NCBI GenBank assembly: GCA_030019415.1
Contig: JASEEX010000013.1
Coordinates: 1 to 44,625, forward strand
Direction: 5' to 3'
Source of the DNA: Thermodesulfovibrionales bacterium
Lineage (GTDB): Bacteria; Nitrospirota; Thermodesulfovibrionia; Thermodesulfovibrionales; SM23-35
Length of the DNA: 44,625 bases
The notes below the pieces were generated by a model. It made no database searches. It was not told the DNA's origin and saw nothing but the letters and a program-made list of their open reading frames with translations. Positions 10,984 to 20,863 of the stretch are shown one piece after another. Each line of letters starts with the position of its first letter. Position 1 is the stretch's first letter. A program made the translations under genes and the position numbers.

Positions 10984-11589
10984 ATGCATATATCAGAAGG
11001 CGTATTGTCGGCACCCGTACTCGTGACGGGTGCCCTGCTTACTTCTGCAGGAACAGCACTGGGGCTGAAAAAGATGACTTATGAGAGGATACCCGAGGTG
11101 GCAGTCTTATCATCTGCCTTCTTCGTTGCCTCTCTGATACATGTCCCTGTAGGTCCATCAAGTGTACACCTCATACTGAATGGTCTCTTAGGAATACTCC
11201 TCGGATGGATGGCCTTCCCATCCATACTCGTGGCCCTTTTATTACAGGCACTCCTCTTTCAGTTCGGTGGATTTACCTCTCTTGGTGTAAATACCTTTAA
11301 TATGGCAGCACCGGCTGTGATAGCCTATTATCTCTTTAACATACCAATACGAAGGGCAAATCATTTTATAGGCATACTTTCAGGATTTGGTGCCGGCCTG
11401 ACAGGTGTGGGGCTTGGTGCCCTATTTGTTGCAATAGCCCTCGTAAGCACAGGAGAGGGCTTTCTCAATGTGGCAAAAGTGGTGGTTGTTGCCCATCTAC
11501 CTGTAATGCTAATTGAGGGAATCATAACGGCCTTCTGTGTTACATTTTTGAAAAAGGTAAAACCAGAAATTCTGGAGGTAGGAAGATGA
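10984..11589 (+). CDS. cbiM: CbiM/NikM substrate-specific component of ECF nickel/cobalt importer
   Basis: A 201-aa multi-helix membrane protein that binds Co2+ or Ni2+. The signature N-terminus MHISEGVLS is present; in this family the N-terminal amine and His2 coordinate the metal. Further conserved elements are HVPVGPSSVHLILNGLLG and FTSLGVNTFNMA. It starts one base after the nikK frame ends (TAATATG) and ends overlapping nikL by 4 bp, so the genes are translationally coupled. Presence of NikK and NikL, rather than CbiN, leans toward nickel in published classifications, but the cobN locus next door leans toward cobalt. Confidence 0.93.
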   Translation: MHISEGVLSAPVLVTGALLTSAGTALGLKKMTYERIPEVAVLSSAFFVASLIHVPVGPSSVHLILNGLLGILLGWMAFPSILVALLLQALLFQFGGFTSLGVNTFNMAAPAVIAYYLFNIPIRRANHFIGILSGFGAGLTGVGLGALFVAIALVSTGEGFLNVAKVVVVAHLPVMLIEGIITAFCVTFLKKVKPEILEVGR

Positions 11590-12293
11590 TAAAAATTAAT
11601 TGCAAATTGCAAAATGCGAATTTCAAATCGCAAATTTTGATAGTCCTTAATTTTGCATTTTTCATTTTGTTATTTGCATTTTGCATTGTTAAAGAGGCCC
11701 ATGCTCATAAAGTGAATATCTATGCCTATGTTGAGGATGGCATGGTCCACTCAGAAAGTTATTTTAGTGATGGCACAAAATGTAAGAATTCCATGGTAGA
11801 GGTTTTTGATGAAAAGAATGGAACTAAGCTCATTGAAGGTAAAACTGATGAAAATGGAAACTTTTCATTTAAAATCTCAAAGGCTACAGCCCTAAAACTC
11901 GTCCTTCATGCAAGCATGGGACACCAAGCTGATTATATTCTTTCTGAGGATGAGGTTAGAGAGGCCATGGGTCAAAAGGCTGGAAAGACAGAAATAAAAG
12001 AAGAACAGAAAAGCCAGGGTCCAGAGGCGCCAAGGCTCAAAAAGACCGAGCAAACTCCCCCGATAAAGATTTTCAAGTCTCCAGATCTTTCTGAAGTGGA
12101 GGCGATTGTGGAAAGAGTCACTGATAGGAAGCTCCAGCCTGTGATGAGGATGCTCGTTAAGCTGCAGGAGAATACTGAAAAGCCAGGTATCACCGAAATA
12201 ATCGGGGGTATAGGTTATATTATAGGGATTCTCGGAATTCTGGCATATCTTAAGGCAAGGTCAGAAGTCAAAAAGAAAATAAAGACAGATTGA
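11586..12293 (+). CDS. nikL: NikL-like periplasmic/membrane subunit of nickel/cobalt importer
   Basis: A 235-aa protein with a signal segment (residues 16-40), mature start at AHKVNIYAYV, a beta-rich Ig-like domain (45-115), a charged Lys/Pro linker and a C-terminal membrane helix (about 208-225). This is the NikL layout; NikL replaces NikN/CbiN in NikKMLQO systems and may stabilise the CbiM component. The start ATGA overlaps the cbiM stop and follows GGAGGTAGG. Codons for about residues 3-38 lie in an A/T-rich imperfect palindrome resembling dispersed intergenic repeats, so the signal peptide appears to be encoded by a repeat element. Confidence 0.85.
   Translation: MIKINCKLQNANFKSQILIVLNFAFFILLFAFCIVKEAHAHKVNIYAYVEDGMVHSESYFSDGTKCKNSMVEVFDEKNGTKLIEGKTDENGNFSFKISKATALKLVLHASMGHQADYILSEDEVREAMGQKAGKTEIKEEQKSQGPEAPRLKKTEQTPPIKIFKSPDLSEVEAIVERVTDRKLQPVMRMLVKLQENTEKPGITEIIGGIGYIIGILGILAYLKARSEVKKKIKTD
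11592..11694. repeat. A/T-rich imperfect palindrome inside nikL
   Basis: GCAAATTGCAAAATGCGAAT on the left is mirrored by TTATTTGCATTTTGCATTG on the right, with a short A/T spacer. It resembles the intergenic A/T-rich palindromes elsewhere in the window (32244-32378) and encodes the hydrophobic NFAFFILLFAFCI signal core of NikL. Copy number in the genome is unknown. Confidence 0.55.
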
Positions 12294-12297
12294 AGTT

Positions 12298-13047
12298 ATG
12301 CATCTTGAAGAATTTGCTGAAGGCAACTCCTTTTTCCACAGACTTGACCCGAGGGTTAAGTTTATAACCATAATGCCCTATATCTTTGTCATTGCTATTA
12401 TGCAAGGAACAAAGGGCCCACTCTTAGCGCTTATCATCTCCCTCTTAATAGTGGCTTTTACACGCATAAGCGTTAAAAAACTTATTGGAAGGTTGATTGT
12501 TGTAAACACCTTTATATTTATTCTATGGATATTCCTTCCCTTTAGTTACCCCGGAGATGCAGTTTTTCATATAGGTCCTTTAGAAGCAACCCATGAGGGT
12601 TTTCTTTATGTCCTTTCTATTACACTTAAGGCCAACGCTATTGTGCTTGCAACCATAGCAATCCTCGGCACATCAGAGGTCTTTTCCCTTGCCCATGCCC
12701 TTGTACACCTCAAGGTGCCTGATAAGCTGGTTCATTTATTCTTCTTTTTTTACAGATATATAAGTGTCCTGCACGAAGAATATGAGAGACTGGAAAATGC
12801 AATGGCCATCAGGGCTTTCAAGGCAAAGACAAACATGCATACATATAGAACATATGCATATCTTGTTGGCATGCTTATTATTAGAAGCTATGATCGCTCC
12901 CAGAGGATTTACAAGGCAATGTTATGCAGAGGATTTAAGGGCAAGTTTCGTGTAATGAGCCATTTCGAACTCAAAAGAGGAGATGTAGTATTCGGCCTGC
13001 TGATGACTTTGATAACATCCGTGATGGGACTTTTATTTATTTTATAA
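12298..13047 (+). CDS. cbiQ: CbiQ/NikQ transmembrane component of ECF importer
   Basis: A 249-aa membrane protein that couples the ATPase to CbiM. It begins FAEGNSFFHRLDPRVKF, the usual amphipathic CbiQ start, followed by several hydrophobic helices. The cytoplasmic coupling-helix region includes ENAMAIRAFKAK and KAMLCRGFKGK, matching the paired Ala-Arg-Gly/Ala-x-Arg signature segments of T components. It lies 4 bp after nikL and 3 bp before cbiO, clearly one operon. Confidence 0.92.
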   Translation: MHLEEFAEGNSFFHRLDPRVKFITIMPYIFVIAIMQGTKGPLLALIISLLIVAFTRISVKKLIGRLIVVNTFIFILWIFLPFSYPGDAVFHIGPLEATHEGFLYVLSITLKANAIVLATIAILGTSEVFSLAHALVHLKVPDKLVHLFFFFYRYISVLHEEYERLENAMAIRAFKAKTNMHTYRTYAYLVGMLIIRSYDRSQRIYKAMLCRGFKGKFRVMSHFELKRGDVVFGLLMTLITSVMGLLFIL

Positions 13048-13050
13048 AAG

Positions 13051-13746
13051 ATGAACAGGGAAGAATATTTAATTGAGATAAGGGATCTATGTTTTAGCTA
13101 CGCTAATGGTAGAAAAGTATTTAATAGCCTGAATTTTTCCCTTAAAAGCGGAGACAGGATTGGCCTTACAGGTCCCAATGGTGCTGGGAAGACTACATTA
13201 CTGCATTTGATAATGGGACTTTTAAAACCGAACTCGGGGGAGATAAAGATATTTGGAAAGGTCAGGAAAGAGGAAAAAGATTTTACAGAGGTGAGGCAGC
13301 GGATTGGTCTTCTGTTCCAGGATTCAGATGACCAGCTCTTTTGTCCAACTATTGAGGAGGACGTTGCCTTTGGGCCATTAAATCTTGGGAAATCCCTTGA
13401 AGAAGCAAGGGCCATAGTGAGAGAGACCTGTGAAAAATTAGGATTGAAGGGTTTTGAAAAAAGGATTACTCACCGTCTTTCAAGTGGAGAAAAAAGGCTC
13501 GTTGCCCTTGCTACTGTTGTGGCAATGAATCCTGAGTGCCTTTTGCTTGATGAACCATCTACTGGACTTGATGAGATGAGCACAGAGAGGTTCTTAAAAT
13601 ATCTAAAGGAATATTCAGATACATATATAATCATCAGCCAGGATCATGGATTTTTAAAAGATGTGGCTGATAAAATTTACAGGCTTAAAGATAGTAAAAT
13701 AGAAATGTGGGGAGAACTGAAAAAAACCAAAAAGATTGTTATATAA
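13051..13746 (+). CDS. cbiO: CbiO/NikO ATPase of ECF importer
   Basis: A 231-aa ABC ATPase energising the CbiM/CbiQ membrane complex. Walker A GPNGAGKTT (about residues 40-48), Q-loop LLFQDSDDQLF, Walker B CLLLDEPS and the D-loop TGLD are intact. The signature motif reads LSSGEKR instead of LSGGQ, a variant common in CbiO. The DDQLF after the Q-loop is typical of ECF ATPases. It is the last gene of the importer operon; a terminator-like hairpin follows at 13826. Confidence 0.93.
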   Translation: MNREEYLIEIRDLCFSYANGRKVFNSLNFSLKSGDRIGLTGPNGAGKTTLLHLIMGLLKPNSGEIKIFGKVRKEEKDFTEVRQRIGLLFQDSDDQLFCPTIEEDVAFGPLNLGKSLEEARAIVRETCEKLGLKGFEKRITHRLSSGEKRLVALATVVAMNPECLLLDEPSTGLDEMSTERFLKYLKEYSDTYIIISQDHGFLKDVADKIYRLKDSKIEMWGELKKTKKIVI

Positions 13747-13825: not shown

Positions 13826-13871
13826 GCCATGAAGGCTAAGCACCATGAAGGTGGGTTTTCATGGCTTTTTT
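13826..13871 (+). terminator. terminator-like nested hairpin between cbiO and tonB
   Basis: Arms GCCATGAA (13826-13833) and TTCATGGC (13858-13865) enclose a second small hairpin CACC-ATGAA-GGTG (13841-13853) and are followed directly by TTTTTT. This looks like an intrinsic terminator separating the importer operon from tonB. The preceding 13747-13825 is A-rich with only a weak hairpin (AGCTC/GAGCT at 13783-13796). A cobalamin riboswitch was looked for by eye and not recognised. Confidence 0.6.
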
Positions 13872-13885
13872 GTTTTGGGGGATCT

Positions 13886-14641
13886 ATGGAAAAGGCCATA
13901 TGTAAAAGAGCTTCAAAGTTTACTACCAGCGGGAGTGGCATGCTGAACATAAGGCATAATCCCGGTCTTTTAATCTCGGGTATCTTACATATCTTGATTA
14001 TGGTTATTCCTGTTTCAATGGTTGTTGTACAGAAATTTGGTGAGATAGAGCTTTTTGTGATGGATGAAGAAGTGCCTGTTGTTCAAGACCGTAAGATAGT
14101 ACATAAGCAGAAAAAGATAGAGCTTTTAGAAGTGCCAAAACAAGAAGTAAAAGGGGAGGAGCCAGTTCAAAAGATCGAAGAAAAACCTGTAATCAAAGAA
14201 GAGATTATTGAACCTCGGATAATTTCTAATAAGCCAGAAAGCATTACTTTGCCCTTTTCTGAAAAGCCTAATCCTCTAAAGGCCGAGGTGCGTGAGGTTG
14301 CCTCCGCACCTCAAGTCTCTTTACCACCAAAACAGACTTCTCAAATCCAGGATGTAGAGCTCGGGTCACCAGAAGGCCCTAAATTTTTACATAGGGAACT
14401 GCCAACTTATCCTACGATTGCAAGGAGAATGGGAAAAGAAGGTAGGGTAATTTTGAGATTAACCATAGATGAAAAAGGAAACCTGTTAAATGTGGAAATC
14501 ATTGAAAATGCTGGTTATGGCTTTACAGAGGCTGCTATCGAAGCGGTAAAAAGATCGACATTTCTACCAGCAAAAAGGGGTGGCAAATCCGTAGCATCAA
14601 GGGCGACATTGCCTATAAGATTTGTTCTTCGGAGGGATTGA
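13886..14641 (+). CDS. tonB: TonB energy-transducing protein
   Basis: The product spans the periplasm and passes proton-motive energy from ExbBD to outer-membrane receptors. It has a single N-terminal membrane helix (ISGILHILIMVIPVSMVVV), a Lys/Glu/Pro-rich linker with repeated VP, KP and EKP units, and a C-terminal TonB domain with PTYPTIARRMGKEGRV and the YGFTEAAIEAVKR...PAK segment. The start at 13886 follows GGGGGATCT and avoids the terminator hairpin that a longer frame from 13829 would translate. It overlaps exbB by one base (TGATG). Gene order tonB-exbB-exbD-receptor implies a dedicated TonB. Confidence 0.9.
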   Translation: MEKAICKRASKFTTSGSGMLNIRHNPGLLISGILHILIMVIPVSMVVVQKFGEIELFVMDEEVPVVQDRKIVHKQKKIELLEVPKQEVKGEEPVQKIEEKPVIKEEIIEPRIISNKPESITLPFSEKPNPLKAEVREVASAPQVSLPPKQTSQIQDVELGSPEGPKFLHRELPTYPTIARRMGKEGRVILRLTIDEKGNLLNVEIIENAGYGFTEAAIEAVKRSTFLPAKRGGKSVASRATLPIRFVLRRD

Positions 14642-15192
14642 TGATCGAGTTTTTCTTAAAAGGCGGCTTCTTAATGTACACAATACTCCTTTGCTCTATT
14701 ACAGGAGTTGCTATCCTGATTAACAAGTTTATCCAGTATAGAGGGATTTTAAGAAAGTTAGAGATGCCTCTGGATGATATATTGAAAAAGAAAACAAACC
14801 CTACCATTTTGACACCCATACTTGAGGGAATAAAGAATGGCTGTGATGAAAAAGAGCTTTCCTTGATCGGTACCAGACAGGTAAGGAAGATGGAAAAGGG
14901 ATTAAGCTGGCTCTCATTGATTGCAACGATTGCACCACTTCTTGGTTTAACGGGAACGGTGACAGGAATGATTAAGGCTTTTATGGTCATAGAGAACAGC
15001 ACAAGCGTGAATCCATCAATGCTTGCAGGGGGAATCTGGGAGGCTTTGATTACAACCGCAGCAGGATTACTTGTGGCAATACCCATTCATATAGGGCATC
15101 ACTACTTGGAAAAACAGGCTGATGATATAGCTTTTGTGTTGAAAGAAGTAACCACGAGTCTTTACATGAGGTACAAGAATGATAAAAAGTAA
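14641..15192 (+). CDS. exbB: ExbB/TolQ-family proton channel subunit
   Basis: About 183 aa with three hydrophobic segments: one N-terminal (GGFLMYTILLCSITGVAIL) and two later helices containing SLIATIAPLLGLTGTVTGMI and GGIWEALITTAAGLLVAIPIH. The latter carry the conserved GLTGTVxGM and EAL-TTA-GL motifs of MotA/TolQ/ExbB. It forms the pentameric stator with ExbD that energises TonB. The ATG at 14641 is preferred over TTG at 14638; GGAGGG lies upstream. The following gene on this strand, exbD, is 588 bp away because a reverse-oriented toxin-antitoxin pair lies between. Confidence 0.9.
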   Translation: MIEFFLKGGFLMYTILLCSITGVAILINKFIQYRGILRKLEMPLDDILKKKTNPTILTPILEGIKNGCDEKELSLIGTRQVRKMEKGLSWLSLIATIAPLLGLTGTVTGMIKAFMVIENSTSVNPSMLAGGIWEALITTAAGLLVAIPIHIGHHYLEKQADDIAFVLKEVTTSLYMRYKNDKK

Positions 15193-15199
15193 AAAGTTC

Positions 15200-15457
15200 T
15201 CAGGGCTTTTTCAATACATCATGAGGGCCAATCCTTCTAAGAAGATAATACCCTTTGTGGATTTCAAAGGTAAACCTATAAAATATCGTGATGCTCGCCT
15301 CCCATCTGTTTTCATGACCCTCAAGTTTTTTAATCCTCAAAGAAGGATGGTGTATATTTTCCATAAAAAGTCTTATCTTCTTTTCAAATGCCTTTTGTAT
15401 ATGGGTAGGAAGGTTTTTATAGTCTTTCTTGAAAGAATTGGTGCGAACTATCTTCAT
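15200..15457 (-). CDS. RelE/ParE-superfamily toxin
   Basis: An 85-aa basic protein with the RelE-fold pattern: N-terminal strand and FKKDYKNLPTHIQKAFEKKI helices, RIKKLEGHENRWEASI, then strands FYRFTFEIHKGYYLLRRIGPHDVL. This matches YafQ/RelE-type mRNA interferases or ParE relatives. It overlaps its antitoxin gene by 4 bp (ATGA), antitoxin first. The pair lies antisense within the tonB-exbB-exbD run, its stop only 7 bp from the exbB stop. Catalytic residues in this family vary, so activity is not assured. Confidence 0.85.
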   Translation of the reverse strand: MKIVRTNSFKKDYKNLPTHIQKAFEKKIRLFMENIHHPSLRIKKLEGHENRWEASITIFYRFTFEIHKGYYLLRRIGPHDVLKKP

Positions 15458-15705
15458 GCATTGAGGTCAGAGAGAAATTCATCCACAGATGAAAACTCCT
15501 CAACCCTTCCCGATGCGATATCTGAATCTGCTTCAGTTTCTGCCTTTTCCCAATCAAAATCTCTGAAATACGGAGGTAGTGTTAGTGCATATCTAATAAG
15601 CTCGCATATCGCAGACTGCTCATCAGGAAGGTGTGATTCCTCTTTGAACTTTATTATTTCATCAAACATGCTGTCTGGTATCTCTAAAACAACCTTTTTC
15701 CGCAT
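15454..15705 (-). CDS. antitoxin of the RelE-type pair
   Basis: An acidic protein of 83 aa. The N-terminal half (KKVVLEIPDSMFDEIIKFKEE) resembles a strand-helix DNA-binding antitoxin start. The C-terminal half, with SDIASGRVEEFSSVDEFLSDL, is the toxin-wrapping tail common in RelE-family antitoxins. The Met at 15705 is chosen because AGGAGA lies 9 bp upstream; a longer frame reaches 15741. It would autorepress the pair, divergently from exbD, whose ATG is 75 bp away, so the two genes share a short control region. Confidence 0.8.
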   Translation of the reverse strand: MRKKVVLEIPDSMFDEIIKFKEESHLPDEQSAICELIRYALTLPPYFRDFDWEKAETEADSDIASGRVEEFSSVDEFLSDLNA

Positions 15706-15779
15706 GATTGTTGCATCTCCTTTTTTGAGAAATATTAACACGAAGCTTAGATATACATCAATCGTAAAGAGATATAAGC

Positions 15780-16178
15780 ATGCAGTTTAAAAGAAGAAAG
15801 CCCTACCATACTCACTTGAACATTGCCCCATTGGTTGATGTGGTTTTTCTTTTGCTTCTGTTTTTCATGCTCACATCTCATCTGATACAGGAACCAGCAA
15901 TAAAGGTCAGATTGCCTGAATCAAAAACCGCAGAAGCCAGAAGCGAGATGATTAAGACGGTTTTGATCACAAAAAATGGCGAAATCTATTTTATGGACAA
16001 AAGGGTAGATCTGGATAATCTCCAAATAGCCATCAAAGAGAATCTGAGGGATTTAGAAAGAGAATTCTTACGGATAAAGGCAGACAGAGATGTAAGTATT
16101 GGACTTTTAGTAAGTGTGATCGATGAGGTAAGGCTTTCAGGGGTTAAGAATTTCAGTATTGTAGCTGAAAGGAGGTGA
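15780..16178 (+). CDS. exbD: ExbD/TolR-family stator subunit
   Basis: A 132-aa protein with a short cytoplasmic start, one membrane helix (LNIAPLVDVVFLLLLFFMLTS) containing the essential proton-carrying Asp, and a periplasmic domain. It partners ExbB to drive TonB. It is separated from exbB by the antisense toxin-antitoxin pair, so either the transcript reads through that pair or exbD has its own promoter. An AAAGAGA sequence precedes the ATG. The next small gene starts 4 bp after its stop. Confidence 0.92.
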   Translation: MQFKRRKPYHTHLNIAPLVDVVFLLLLFFMLTSHLIQEPAIKVRLPESKTAEARSEMIKTVLITKNGEIYFMDKRVDLDNLQIAIKENLRDLEREFLRIKADRDVSIGLLVSVIDEVRLSGVKNFSIVAERR

Positions 16179-16182
16179 AAGT

Positions 16183-16383
16183 TTGGATGAGCTTGAAAAG
16201 TTAAAAAGACTACTTCATCACTGGATGGAGCACAATAATGAGCATGCGGAAGCCTACCGGGACTGGGCAAAAAAAACATCATCCCTCGGTAATAGAGAAA
16301 TCTCAGAGATTCTCGACTTACTTTATTATGAGGCAAAGAGACTGAACAGGCTTTTTGAAAAAGCCATGAAGAAAATTGGTTGA
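16183..16383 (+). CDS. small His/Glu-rich helical protein of the uptake operon
   Basis: A 66-aa acidic protein read from TTG at 16183 with an excellent RBS (GGAGGTG at 16171-16177). It is predicted all-helical, with the cluster LLHHWMEHNNEHAEAYRDWAKK holding four His and several Glu that could bind a metal, followed by a second amphipathic helix. It lies 4 bp after exbD and before the TonB-dependent receptor, so it belongs to the uptake system. I recall similar HW-x-EHN-x-EHA proteins near metal-uptake genes but cannot name a confirmed function; a metallochaperone is a guess. Confidence 0.65.
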   Translation: MDELEKLKRLLHHWMEHNNEHAEAYRDWAKKTSSLGNREISEILDLLYYEAKRLNRLFEKAMKKIG

Positions 16384-16451
16384 ACCCTTTTTCTTTTTCT
16401 CTAAGAAAGAGGTAAGGGAAAAGGCTGTTCAATAACAAAGGTAGTTTTTAT

Positions 16452-16521
16452 GTCATTCCTGCGGAAGCAGGAATCCAGAGGAAAAAACAAAGACTGGATT
16501 CCGCATCAAGTGCGGAATGAC
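16452..16521. repeat. palindromic repeat, copy A
   Basis: A 70-bp element bounded by GTCATTCC and GGAATGAC with inner arms CCTGCGGAAGCAGG and CCGCATCAAGTGCGG. Members of the same family recur at 18767 and 22600, with a related one at 21651. It lies between the small His-rich gene and the receptor gene; a longer frame from 16450 that translates it is not the true gene start. Confidence 0.85.
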
Positions 16522-16623
16522 GGAAAAAGTAACCTTGTAGCAAGGAATTTTTCGAACCAAAGCCACGAAGGCTTTATATCTCTCCTAAGAAAGGGGTTTA
16601 AAAAAATTCTTAGGAGGTGTTTG

Positions 16624-18645
16624 ATGAGGAAGGTTTTTAGGAGCTTTATAAGTGGTCTTTTAGGTTTATTGTTTACTACTTCAGTAGCATTGGCAGAGGA
16701 AAAAGGAAAGGTTAAAGAAGAAAAAGAAGCTGAACTTGAGGAGATTGTGGTTACTGCTACGAGGACAGAGAGACCTGTAGAAGAGGTCCCTGCTTCGGTA
16801 ACGGTGATAACCAAAGACGAAATAGAGAAGATGTCTGCAAAATATGTGGATGACCTGCTCCGGGATATTGTAAGTGCGCAAGTTTATCGCCCTGCCGGGG
16901 TGACATCTACCATGCAACATGTAACCCTGAGGGGGGTACCACATCAGAGAGGAACCTTGATTTTGTTAGATGGTGTTCCTTTGAATGACATGTACTATGG
17001 TGGCGTCGAGTTCAATGAGATACCTGTGGAGAACGTCGAGCGTATCGAGATAGTTCGGGGTCCAGCCTCAGCCCTTTATGGCTCAAGCGCTATGGGAGGA
17101 GTAATTAATATCATTACCAAAAAGCCGGAAAGGGAGATGAAAGGTCTCATTGAAGGGACATATGGGACGATGAATACGTGGAGTGGCAGACTTCACCTCA
17201 CGGGAACTTTAAAAGAGAAATTCGGTTACTATCTTTCTGCCAGTCGTTTAGAGACCGATGGCTATTATGCCCAGATCAAACCGGAGCCCAATTGGAAAAA
17301 AAGAACCAGAGAACATGAACACTATATTGGGAAATTCACTTATGAGGTTGATCCCATGTCAAATATTTCCTTTACTTACTCACACTGGCATGAGGCCGCA
17401 GGAGGGGGAAGAAAATACTACTACGGCTCTACATTTAGGAATAGGGCTATCCTTGGATACGAGAAGAAGACCGAAGGATTTAATCTCTCGGCAAATACCT
17501 TTTTTCTCCATGAGGATGATTACTGGACCTATGATAAATCCCCGAAATATGACTGCGTGGAAAAAAAGAATGAGAAGCCTTCCAACGAGATTGGAGCGAT
17601 GATGACCTTAACTCTTCCCGTAGGGAAGGGGCATCTTTTTACTTCTGGGCTAGATTACCGTTGGTTTGAAGGAGAGAGCAGGTATGATTGGGAAGTATTC
17701 CCCTTCCGAAAGACAAGAACTGAAGGGAAACAACATCGTGCCGCTCTATTCTTTCAAGATGAGATAGACTTGGGGAAGTTACTAATCACGCTGGGTTGCC
17801 GCGGTGACTGGTACAGAAGCTATGACGGATCCTACCACGATTACGATACAACAGAAGTGTATAAGAAGGAGGAGTATGCGGCAAAGAGTTCCGGCTCAAT
17901 CAATCCGAAGCTCGGCCTGGTATACCATCTGACCAGCTCCACAACCCTTCGTGGCTTGGTGGGCAGGGCCTTCAATGCCCCCTATGTTTATTATCTCTAC
18001 CACAACTGGGGGTTTCCAGGGAGATACTGGTACATGGGAAACCCGGAATTAGATCCGGAGTACATGATGGGGTATGAGGCAGGAGTAGAACAGCGGATAG
18101 GGGAAAAATTTAAGATCAGATTTACCGGATTCCATAATGACATAGATAATTATATTGGCACTGTGTATGTAAGGACAAACCCTGTGACAAAGGAAAAAGA
18201 ATATAAATACCAGAATATTGATGAGGTGGAAAGCAGGGGTTTGGAACTCGAGGCAGAATATCGACCCTTAAAATCTTTAACCCTATATGCCAATTACAAT
18301 TATATCCACGCAAAGATAGAAGAATCAAAAAAGCCCGAGCTAAAAGGGAAGCGTGTCGCAAGGGAGCCATATAACAGGGTGAACTTTGGTTTCATTTATG
18401 ATAGTCCGAAGATAGTCACTTTTTCCGTAAGAGTCAGGTATGTGGGTGAAAGATATGACGATCTGGAAAATAAATATCCTCTTGATGGATATACAACGTG
18501 TGATATCAAGCTCACAAGGAAAATAGGCAAATTTGTGGAGGCGTCCATTGAGATTGATGATCTTTTCGATGAAGCCTGGCAAGAATCAAAACTTTATAAT
18601 GCGCCTGGAAGGATAATTACTGGCAGGCTCAAGGTAAGCTTTTAG
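16624..18645 (+). CDS. TonB-dependent outer-membrane receptor (BtuB-like)
   Basis: A 673-aa receptor with a signal peptide (to SVALA), a TonB-box region EEIVVTATRT, a plug domain (about 45-165, with LRGVPHQRGTLILLDGVPLND and RIEIVRGPASALYGSSAMGGVINIITKKP) and a barrel ending in the C-terminal aromatic VSF. The plug resembles the vitamin B12/iron-chelate group. ATG 16624 follows AGGAGGTG and gives a clean signal peptide. Flanking TonB/ExbBD, BtuFCD-type and CobN genes suggest a corrinoid, heme or metal-chelate ligand; none can be read from the sequence. Confidence 0.9.
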   Translation: MRKVFRSFISGLLGLLFTTSVALAEEKGKVKEEKEAELEEIVVTATRTERPVEEVPASVTVITKDEIEKMSAKYVDDLLRDIVSAQVYRPAGVTSTMQHVTLRGVPHQRGTLILLDGVPLNDMYYGGVEFNEIPVENVERIEIVRGPASALYGSSAMGGVINIITKKPEREMKGLIEGTYGTMNTWSGRLHLTGTLKEKFGYYLSASRLETDGYYAQIKPEPNWKKRTREHEHYIGKFTYEVDPMSNISFTYSHWHEAAGGGRKYYYGSTFRNRAILGYEKKTEGFNLSANTFFLHEDDYWTYDKSPKYDCVEKKNEKPSNEIGAMMTLTLPVGKGHLFTSGLDYRWFEGESRYDWEVFPFRKTRTEGKQHRAALFFQDEIDLGKLLITLGCRGDWYRSYDGSYHDYDTTEVYKKEEYAAKSSGSINPKLGLVYHLTSSTTLRGLVGRAFNAPYVYYLYHNWGFPGRYWYMGNPELDPEYMMGYEAGVEQRIGEKFKIRFTGFHNDIDNYIGTVYVRTNPVTKEKEYKYQNIDEVESRGLELEAEYRPLKSLTLYANYNYIHAKIEESKKPELKGKRVAREPYNRVNFGFIYDSPKIVTFSVRVRYVGERYDDLENKYPLDGYTTCDIKLTRKIGKFVEASIEIDDLFDEAWQESKLYNAPGRIITGRLKVSF

Positions 18646-18708
18646 TACGGAAGGACATGGTTTGGCGAGCTGACAATGAGGTTTTAATGGGGGGATTATT
18701 AAACAATT

Positions 18709-18829
18709 TGTCATTGCGAGCGAAGCGAGGCAATCTACCTATACCAAAGAGTTGGCCACATGGATTGTCATTCCCGCGAAAGCGGGAATCCAGTAAAAAG
18801 ACTGGATTCCGTGTCAAGCACGGAATGAC
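18709..18829. repeat. two dispersed repeats, copies B1 and B2
   Basis: B1 (18709-18736) is a TGTCATTGCGAGCGAAGCG-type element. B2 (18767-18829) is a GTCATTCC...GGAATGAC palindrome with inner arms CCCGCGAAAGCGGG and CCGTGTCAAGCACGG. They fill the gap between the receptor and binding-protein genes, and the RBS of the latter begins right at the B2 edge. Confidence 0.85.
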
Positions 18830-18845
18830 AAAGGTGACTTTACTT

Positions 18846-19814
18846 ATGAATTTTTTAGTAGCGGGTTTTTCATTAATTCTTACATTCTCATCTCCAGAAG
18901 CCTCCACCATCACTTACAATGATAAGCTTGGCAGGAAGGTCGCCATTGATGTTCCTGTAAAAAGGGCTGTATTTTTTATAAGCTACGAATTAATCCCTAC
19001 CCTTGGAGTATGGGACAAAGTCGTTGGCATCAGTAGATGGGCATATGATAACGATTTGATGAAGGCAGCAAAACCTGACATTGAAAAGACTATCCCATCT
19101 GTAGGTAGTGGCTCTGATGTGAACATAGAGGCGCTTCTTAAACTCAAACCCGACCTCGTAATTACATGGACGTTCAAACCTGAAACAATAAGGTTTATGG
19201 AGGAGAAAGGATTAAAGGTTATAGCAATCTATCCTGAAAGCCTTGAGGAACTCCATGATGTGATGAGACTCCATGGAAGACTTTTTAAAAGGGAAAAACA
19301 GATGGAGCACTCTATTTCGCAGATGGAAAAGATATTCAAACTTATAAAAGAAAGGGTTTCAAAGATTCCTGATGATAAGAGGAAAAAGGTTTTGTGGCTT
19401 GGAGGAAAGCCAACATCTGTAGCCTGTGGGATTGGTGTTACAAATGATGTTTTTAAGCTTATCGGTGGTATCAATCCGGCATCTGTTATACGGCAGAGAA
19501 ATGCCGATATCCCGATGGAGAGAATAATAGCATGGAATCCTGATGTAATCTTCATCTGGGGGAATGCAAGTTATAGGGCCCGGGACATCCTTAATAGTTC
19601 TCAGTGGAGCTCTGTAAAGGCTGTAAAAAAGGGCAGGGTTTATAAGGCGCCGGAATGGTCAACATGGTCTCCGAGGCTTGCACCTATAGCCTTATGGATG
19701 GCGATAAAAACTTATCCTGAATATTTCGGTGATGTAAATCTGAATAAGGCTACAGATGAATTTTACAGAAGTGTATTCAGTATACCGTATACCAAGGTGA
19801 AAAAATTTGAGTAA
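18846..19814 (+). CDS. periplasmic substrate-binding protein, BtuF/FepB class
   Basis: About 323 aa with an N-terminal signal segment (MNFLVAGFSLILTFSSPEAS) and two Rossmann-like lobes joined by a long helix, the class III/TroA-like fold used for siderophores, heme and B12. Visible landmarks are the opening TYNDKLGRKVAIDVPVKRAV, the DLVITW segment and the closing WSTWSPRLAPIALWMA. ATG 18846 is chosen because AAGGTGAC lies upstream and longer starts translate the B2 repeat. It delivers substrate to the permease that begins 11 bp downstream. No lipobox was seen. Confidence 0.87.
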   Translation: MNFLVAGFSLILTFSSPEASTITYNDKLGRKVAIDVPVKRAVFFISYELIPTLGVWDKVVGISRWAYDNDLMKAAKPDIEKTIPSVGSGSDVNIEALLKLKPDLVITWTFKPETIRFMEEKGLKVIAIYPESLEELHDVMRLHGRLFKREKQMEHSISQMEKIFKLIKERVSKIPDDKRKKVLWLGGKPTSVACGIGVTNDVFKLIGGINPASVIRQRNADIPMERIIAWNPDVIFIWGNASYRARDILNSSQWSSVKAVKKGRVYKAPEWSTWSPRLAPIALWMAIKTYPEYFGDVNLNKATDEFYRSVFSIPYTKVKKFE

Positions 19815-19825
19815 GGAGTCCATCG

Positions 19826-20863
19826 ATGGGAGGGGATAAAGGGGAGGGTGTCAAAAGACTGCAGTTTGGTATTAAAACAACGCTAATATTAATATCACCC
19901 TTTTTAGTGGGATGGATTGCACTTTTTATCGGTGCTTATAATATCAACCCCCTTATGGTTTTAAAAATTATCATTTCGGAAATCTGGCCTTATTCAGGCA
20001 ACCCTGCAATTGAAGAAAAGGCGATAATATTTGACATAAGACTTCCAAGGGTAATACTTGCAGGTCTTGTAGGTGTTGCACTTTCTGGTTCCGGGGTAAC
20101 ACTGCAGGGGATATTCAGGAATCCTCTTGTTGACCCCTTCATACTCGGCATATCAGCAGGAGCAGCACTGGGCTGTGCCCTATCAGTAGGTTTTTTCCCC
20201 TCACTACCCATACAGCTTATGGCATTTTTGTTTGGTCTCTTTGCTGTTATTCTCGCATACACAATAGCCAGAACACAGGGTGAAATCTCAAGGCTTCCCC
20301 TTGTGCTTTCAGGAGTTATCATATCAGCCTTTTTTGCTGCTATGGTCTCTATCGTAAAGTTTCTTGTTGACCCCCACAAACTCCAAAGCATTGTTTTCTG
20401 GTTAATGGGTAGTTTCTCTCTTGCAGACTGGCATTTTGTAAGAATTGCAGGCATAGGGATAATCATAGGCATTTTACCTATATTCTTTATGAGATGGAGG
20501 CTTAATGTGATAAGTATGGGAGAGGATGAGGCAAAGTCATTGGGTGTGAATGTAAAGAGGGAGAGGATAATATTTATCGGAGCCTCATCCCTTGCCGTGA
20601 GTATCGCGGTATCTGTAAGTGGGATTATTGGCTGGGTAGGGCTAATGGTTCCACATCTGATCAGGATGATGACGGGACCTGACCATAAAAGCCTTGTTCC
20701 TTTAAGCATGGCTGGTGGAGCAGCATTCATGATATTCGCTGACACTATTGCAAGAAATCTGACCAATTTCGACATACCGGTCGGGATAATAACAGCAATA
20801 ACAGGCGCCCCTTTTTTTGTTTACATCATGAAAAAAGGCGGAAGGGAGAGCTGGGGAAGATAA
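19826..20863 (+). CDS. BtuC/FecCD-family ABC permease
   Basis: A 345-aa permease with about ten helices. Family motifs include DIRLPRVILAGLVGVALSGSGVTLQGIFRNPLVDPFILGISAGAALG near residue 70-115 and the coupling-loop segment GEDEAKSLGVNVKRER followed by SGIIGWVGLMVPHLIRMM. This class imports B12, heme and ferric siderophores. ATG at 19826 has AAGGAG upstream. The stop overlaps the ATPase start (TAATG). Confidence 0.92.
   Translation: MGGDKGEGVKRLQFGIKTTLILISPFLVGWIALFIGAYNINPLMVLKIIISEIWPYSGNPAIEEKAIIFDIRLPRVILAGLVGVALSGSGVTLQGIFRNPLVDPFILGISAGAALGCALSVGFFPSLPIQLMAFLFGLFAVILAYTIARTQGEISRLPLVLSGVIISAFFAAMVSIVKFLVDPHKLQSIVFWLMGSFSLADWHFVRIAGIGIIIGILPIFFMRWRLNVISMGEDEAKSLGVNVKRERIIFIGASSLAVSIAVSVSGIIGWVGLMVPHLIRMMTGPDHKSLVPLSMAGGAAFMIFADTIARNLTNFDIPVGIITAITGAPFFVYIMKKGGRESWGR

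Follow-up and report, generated by a model that had tools for sequence, protein, structure and literature searches.

Gene layout at the exbB-exbD junction

The window, by which we mean the whole stretch of 44,625 nucleotides analysed here, belongs to a genome of 1.94 Mb in 166 contigs and carries a tonB-exbB-exbD run that is interrupted, on the opposite strand, by a toxin-antitoxin (TA) pair. The features are as follows:

10984..13746, + strand: cbiM, an open reading frame (ORF) without Pfam match, cbiQ and an ABC ATPase (cobalt/nickel-type transporter), 5′ of tonB
13829..14641, + strand: tonB (Pfam TonB_C, E 6.5e-22)
14641..15192, + strand: exbB (Pfam MotA_ExbB, E 3.7e-28), its ATG overlapping the tonB stop
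15179..15189, + strand: spot matching the 11-bp exbB/exbD overlap of relatives, from the junction comparison
15200..15457, − strand: RelE-superfamily toxin, 85 aa, by profile matches below cut-off, a PDB profile match and the RelE fold of its model
15454..15705, − strand: antitoxin, 83 aa, ATG start; the N-terminal part may be of ribbon-helix-helix type, the fold match being weak
15706..15779, − strand: putative leader and promoter region of the antitoxin, the promoter being read by eye, with a GTGTTAA motif common to the junction copies
15780..16178, + strand: exbD (Pfam ExbD, E 1.8e-28), its overlap with exbB gone
16450..20863, + strand: TonB-dependent receptor, periplasmic binding protein and FecCD permease, 3′ of exbD

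The gap between exbB and exbD measures 587 bp in the window and is filled by the TA pair. Seven bp separate the stop of exbB from that of the toxin, and 74 bp lie between the ATG codons of the antitoxin and of exbD; toxin and antitoxin genes overlap by 4 bp, the toxin being the second gene of the unit. The original prediction, which had placed a complete RelE-like pair antisense between exbB and exbD, is thus confirmed by layout and fold, and its spacing of stops and starts was right. Other starts are conceivable for two of the genes: ORF prediction picks an upstream TTG at 14638 for exbB, and an in-frame upstream GTG would extend the antitoxin gene to 15741. The exbB frame of the window continues past 15179..15189 to its stop at 15190-15192. 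By eye, the ribosome-binding region of exbD (+ strand) falls within 15706..15779 as well.

Two further frames were observed on the + strand. One of 203 aa (15179-15790) spans the whole TA pair and begins at the point where relatives have the start of exbD; two other genomes, G036 and G007, show frames of similar length (about 200 aa) at this spot. It is probably a shadow frame, since similar frames cover copies of the TA pair elsewhere (L032, L033, L038). The other, a small ORF of 66 aa directly 3′ of exbD (16183-16383), matches no curated family above cut-off. The search for known RNAs in the window gave no Rfam match at gathering cut-offs. As a candidate terminator between exbB and the toxin, the sole terminator-like site falls inside the toxin gene and is at chance level. 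A promoter scan, with a yield at chance level, gave no flag for the antitoxin region and picked out nothing promoter-like on the + strand of the cassette.

Families of the toxin and the antitoxin

The toxin misses the curated cut-offs of both Pfam and NCBIfam, with 19.5 bits against ParE_toxin (PF05016, E 0.0015, cut-off 23) and 15.8 bits against RelE_StbE (TIGR02385, E 0.015, cut-off 27.9), and it is therefore placed by fold, at the level of the superfamily. The AlphaFold2 model (pLDDT 89.4) was compared by Foldseek, and the ten top matches are RelE, YoeB, YafQ and Helicobacter pylori toxins, led by Methanocaldococcus jannaschii RelE (E 2.5e-6, TM 0.78). An alignment of the toxin from 12 loci, set up without the relative L034, which has an internal stop, and without weaker matches, gave a profile that, run against the PDB, matches RelE3 of M. 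jannaschii (E 8.8e-6). Of its members, at E up to 0.1, three of 12 match ParE_toxin and one of 12 YafQ_toxin. By its predicted RelE fold, the toxin is a member of the RelE/ParE superfamily.

An arginine and a histidine near the C-terminus of the toxin are invariant in all 12 aligned rows and are reminiscent of the catalytic residues of YoeB and YafQ. Judging from the family, the toxin studied here probably cleaves mRNA in a ribosome-dependent manner, as an mRNA interferase, and its partner is probably a DNA-binding autorepressor.

The antitoxin matches no curated family above cut-off. Its predicted structure is mainly helical, its fold matches to MazE-mt1, NikR and CopG are weak (all E 0.5 or worse), and so is the match of its profile to NikR (E 0.35); on these models it is perhaps of ribbon-helix-helix type. 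The antitoxin alignment covers 11 of the 12 toxin loci, the antitoxin of L037 being cut by the contig end. The two genes occur together, as expected of a type II TA system: of 37 loci, 35 have an antitoxin-like match next to the toxin gene, several of those beyond L104 being weak. The two exceptions are L080, whose contig begins inside the toxin, and L109.

Relatives of the toxin were found in 73 of the 176 genomes of the order (E 0.001). A profile search at E 1e-12 found them in 48 of the 395 genomes of the phylum, at varied locations; within the window's own genome the toxin gives a single match at E up to 1. In G051 (L040/L158, G051:C27) a modE-like and a moeA-like gene stand 546 bp apart, with the same TA family antisense between them. 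The spacing of these two genes in nine other loci is about 8-24 bp in five (G052, G049, G047, G048, G053), values that are accurate to some ten bases because they were extrapolated from the alignment, and wider in four (69 bp in G044, 93 and 1123 bp in G046, 163 bp in G037). In two deltaproteobacterial MAGs (L086, L101) the family lies antisense in cobalamin-type gene runs, beside cobU. Here CobU of L101 was assigned by Pfam, all other gene names at both loci, the cobT-like neighbour in L086 among them, were read by eye, and L101 has an extra ORF between the TA pair and the cobT-like gene. Insertions in sense orientation also occur (L087, L089). In an ORF-based census of neighbours, which misses the modE-like gene beside L102, the gene to the right lies no more than 150 bp away in 15 of 29 loci, and in 12 of these 15 it is convergent with the toxin. 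This bias is only suggestive, since four exbB rows and two cob rows are among the 12.

Two single cases were observed besides. At L034 (G043:C62) the toxin relative with the internal stop adjoins an open antitoxin frame, a decayed pair. At L092 (Nitrospirae Kmv42) a TA copy is convergent with, and just 3′ of, a csm5-like gene and adjoins a PIN-domain pair, both labels being given by eye.

Distribution, age and descent of the cassette

For the comparison of junctions, 38 exbB loci were examined: 27 from 25 of the 176 genomes of the window's order, four more from a search of the phylum (24 of 395 genomes matched, mostly already seen) and seven from seven of the 23 class-mates of G437, counting G437 and G438. 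An exact 11-bp overlap of exbB and exbD is present in 27 of the 32 toxin-free junctions with visible exbD; the other five stand at +8 bp (two), −7 bp (one) and −1 bp (two), and one further exbB locus has no exbD on its contig. At L075 there is an apparent gap of 70 bp, but the exbB frame continues and ends in the 11-bp overlap. With so many toxin-free junctions sharing one exact overlap, the empty site is well defined, and comparison of the sequences indicates that this overlap is the common state of exbB-exbD and probably the ancestral one. Since exbD starts 11 bp inside exbB in these 27 junctions, the TA pair is an insertion that separates two complete genes. The suggestion in the original prediction that the pair is an insertion is thereby borne out by the empty sites of relatives. 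The maintenance of the exact overlap across distant genomes is an observation in its own right and hints at an importance for the ExbB:ExbD ratio.

A TA pair occupies the junction in five of the 38 exbB loci, in two phyla, and is antisense in all five:

G000, the window: Nitrospirota
G036 (L077), Nitrospiraceae bacterium UBA665: Nitrospirota, order of the window
G007 (L079), Thermodesulfovibrionales SKW34: Nitrospirota, order of the window
G437 (L076), Syntrophaceae UBA2208
G438 (L080), Syntrophaceae L.E.D.11_1: the contig ends in the toxin and does not reach exbD

Inspected by eye, the stop of the toxin varies in position by no more than a few bases among the five, and a purine-rich stretch precedes the exbD start in the TA-bearing copies. 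The 7-base motif GTGTTAA in the leader 5′ of the antitoxin was found in four of four junction copies versus none of 22 other copies, a count that omits L080, L085, L091 and L094 (upstream DNA or antitoxin missing) and the loci beyond L104. Empty junctions were found close by. The window's family has five further exbB loci (L003, L007, L009, L012, L014), all of them empty, as are G014 and G008 from the G036/G007 clade and G455, which stands beside G437. In the original prediction, the same arrangement in relatives over long divergence, together with a lack of antisense transcription, was to argue against a recent insertion or a regulatory coupling; the arrangement does persist across divergence, but it is patchy and close relatives are empty.

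Besides the TA pair and the overlapping antisense frame, no gene of transposase size is listed between exbB and exbD, and by eye no end repeats or target duplication were established at the insertion; in the comparison of left flanks with the exbD start, the likeness was too weak to claim a target-site duplication. Carriage by phage or plasmid was considered as well. Of the viral contigs scanned, two stretches matched a pattern and none was confirmed as a relative, and on the plasmid side there is one record, at 44% identity. In G036 a long G/C hairpin at the 3′ end of exbB (L013) alters the C-terminus of ExbB immediately ahead of the toxin and resembles either a terminator or a dispersed palindrome.

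Between junction copies, silent sites of the toxin are at or near saturation, with pS 0.73-0.90 versus pN 0.08-0.17 in all six pairs of the four copies compared (G438 left out). For the antitoxin, pS is 0.61-0.85 versus pN 0.10-0.37, and silent sites are less saturated in four of the six pairs (dS 1.3-1.8). These substitution patterns clearly indicate purifying selection on the TA pair, and the near saturation of silent sites makes the insertion an old one. A recent insertion, as had been considered before, is not borne out in view of this saturation and of a junction present in two phyla.

The genes that flank the cassette and the cassette itself give different trees. On the exbB+exbD tree (32 rows) the five TA-bearing rows need five state changes. 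A single TA-bearing clade is rejected on both genes (p-AU 0.0003), on exbB alone (p-AU 1.7e-9) and on exbD alone (p-AU 3.2e-5, four TA-bearing rows with exbD), and G036 with G007 as a pair is disfavoured on exbB+exbD (p-AU 0.0136). These trees were built without L023 (no exbD), L024, L026 and L028 (distant) and G050f6 and G009f5 (long or partial rows). In the TA tree, which uses 31 of 38 rows (without L105-L111) and includes some fragments such as L112, the window groups with G437 and G438 (support 87/83) and G036 with G007 (100/99). The best tree keeps these two junction clades apart; all five junction copies as one clade cost 1.66 log units and are not rejected (p-AU 0.185).

The two flanks of the window also differ in their affinities. 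Its exbB groups with G437 and the class-mates of G437 (support 97/96), and a placement with its own family, represented by four of five rows (G097 excluded), has p-AU 0.052. For exbD both placements are compatible with the data, with the class-mates of G437 (p-AU 0.224) and with its own family (p-AU 0.302). These affinities are suggestive of a mosaic operon. Exchange of the junction is supported by the fact that exbB of the window goes with the class-mates of G437 while exbD does not clearly do so, and likewise by the comparison of G437 with the empty G455, in which the DNA of exbD is 90% identical and that of exbB 81%. A recent exchange tract between G007 and G036 was also sought as a candidate, and none was seen in a DNA identity scan.

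Interpretation and comparison with known systems

We consider it probable that an old, addiction-type TA cassette entered the exbB/exbD overlap without damage to either gene, travelled together with operon DNA and has been lost or replaced repeatedly. The sequences themselves show the insertion, its empty sites, the fixed orientation, the age, the purifying selection and the conflict between trees; toxin activity, addiction, single origin and mode of spread are inferred. A chromosomal type II cassette, with a RelE-fold toxin that is probably an mRNA interferase and an antitoxin perhaps of ribbon-helix-helix type, would have entered the 11-bp overlap long ago, in antisense orientation and with no loss to either gene. 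A dedicated promoter within the 74 bp that precede exbD would drive the antitoxin, which would hold the toxin in check, so that, judging from the family, loss of the pair would be penalised as in other addiction modules. Translation of exbD would then proceed from a ribosome-binding site of its own, in place of the overlap with exbB, and its transcription would depend on read-through of the antisense cassette. The TA-bearing junction would have been exchanged between Nitrospirota and Syntrophaceae along with exbB/exbD DNA and several times replaced by empty alleles. A single insertion requires several exact returns to the 11-bp overlap, which recombination with empty alleles would explain. The low support for G036 and G007 as a pair on exbB+exbD and the result of the identity scan between these two genomes speak against this. 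The antisense placement itself probably reflects tolerance, read-through of the operon yielding antisense RNA and not toxin mRNA.

Related cassettes may instead have entered the overlap in two to five independent events, either at an insertion hotspot or because tight junctions tolerate insertions only in antisense. The five changes on the exbB+exbD tree, the separation of the two junction clades in the best TA tree, the antisense copies beside cobU and in the modE-moeA-like gap and the 12 convergent among 15 close right-hand neighbours all speak for such repeated entry. However, the GTGTTAA leader is present in all four junction copies compared and in none of 22 others, one clade of all five is compatible with the TA tree, and by eye the five toxin stops almost coincide in position. 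We prefer one original insertion because of the shared leader motif and the near-identical position of the toxin stop, and regard repeated entry as possible but distinctly less probable. At the other extreme, a recent neutral insertion confined to the genome of the window would fit the single match to the toxin there. The same junction in four other genomes and two phyla and the saturation of silent sites rule out a recent single insertion, and we give this reading next to no weight.

The arrangement could also be kept for regulatory coupling, as read-through of the operon would make antisense RNA to the TA pair and binding of the antitoxin would throttle exbD. This would be in line with the antisense orientation in all five copies, with retention in two phyla under purifying selection, with an antitoxin leader that directly precedes exbD and with a scan (at chance level) that showed no + strand promoter-like site inside the cassette. 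Yet presence is patchy and close relatives are empty, from which it follows that uptake does not depend on the TA pair, and the antisense orientation is equally expected because a sense insertion would drive the toxin. As tolerance and coupling use the same logic here, orientation alone is not decisive, and we hold coupling to be unlikely. A slightly bolder version, to which we attach still a little less credence, sees in the RelE cassette a read-through sensor: high transcription of the operon would silence the toxin via antisense RNA, and the antitoxin promoter would gate exbD. If this were true, the stoichiometry of ExbB and ExbD (ExbB without matching ExbD) and the activity of the toxin would be interdependent.

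The locus offers a clean natural experiment: several sets of relatives from two phyla have the same overlapping gene pair, some with a TA cassette in it and some lacking one. Such sets allow asking how an operon is affected when a chromosomal TA pair interrupts it, and by what route cassettes with no obvious transposase get into overlapping genes and spread. Since the overlap is strongly conserved, the cost of breaking it should be measurable.

In the titles and abstract openings of the open-licence papers searched, no description of a TA pair between exbB and exbD was found. A paper on NikR of H. pylori treats both exbB and TA systems (PMC5385501), and the passages of it that were retrieved do not place the two side by side. 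The insertion of a TA pair into an operon has a printed precedent, and the exbB-exbD case is a new and unusually well-resolved example that is ordinary in kind. Like RelBE, YefM-YoeB and DinJ-YafQ, the pair of the window has a RelE-fold toxin encoded second in a two-gene operon with a 4-bp overlap; unlike these, its toxin scores below the Pfam and NCBIfam cut-offs and its antitoxin matches no curated family above cut-off. Gene order and a high exbB identity connect the window with the tonB-exbB-exbD operons found in its phylum and among the class-mates of G437, whereas their toxin-free junctions mostly (27/32) show the 11-bp overlap in place of its 587-bp gap. The precedent, according to the passages retrieved from its source, is a HEPN-MNT TA pair inserted in a lysine operon of Thermus thermophilus HB8 and absent in HB27 (PMC2701414). 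In both cases a metabolic operon holds a TA cassette that a relative lacks at the same site. However, the Thermus pair is of another TA type and is documented there from two strains, whereas the exbB-exbD junction occurs in two phyla and is set apart by its fixed antisense orientation within an overlapping gene pair.
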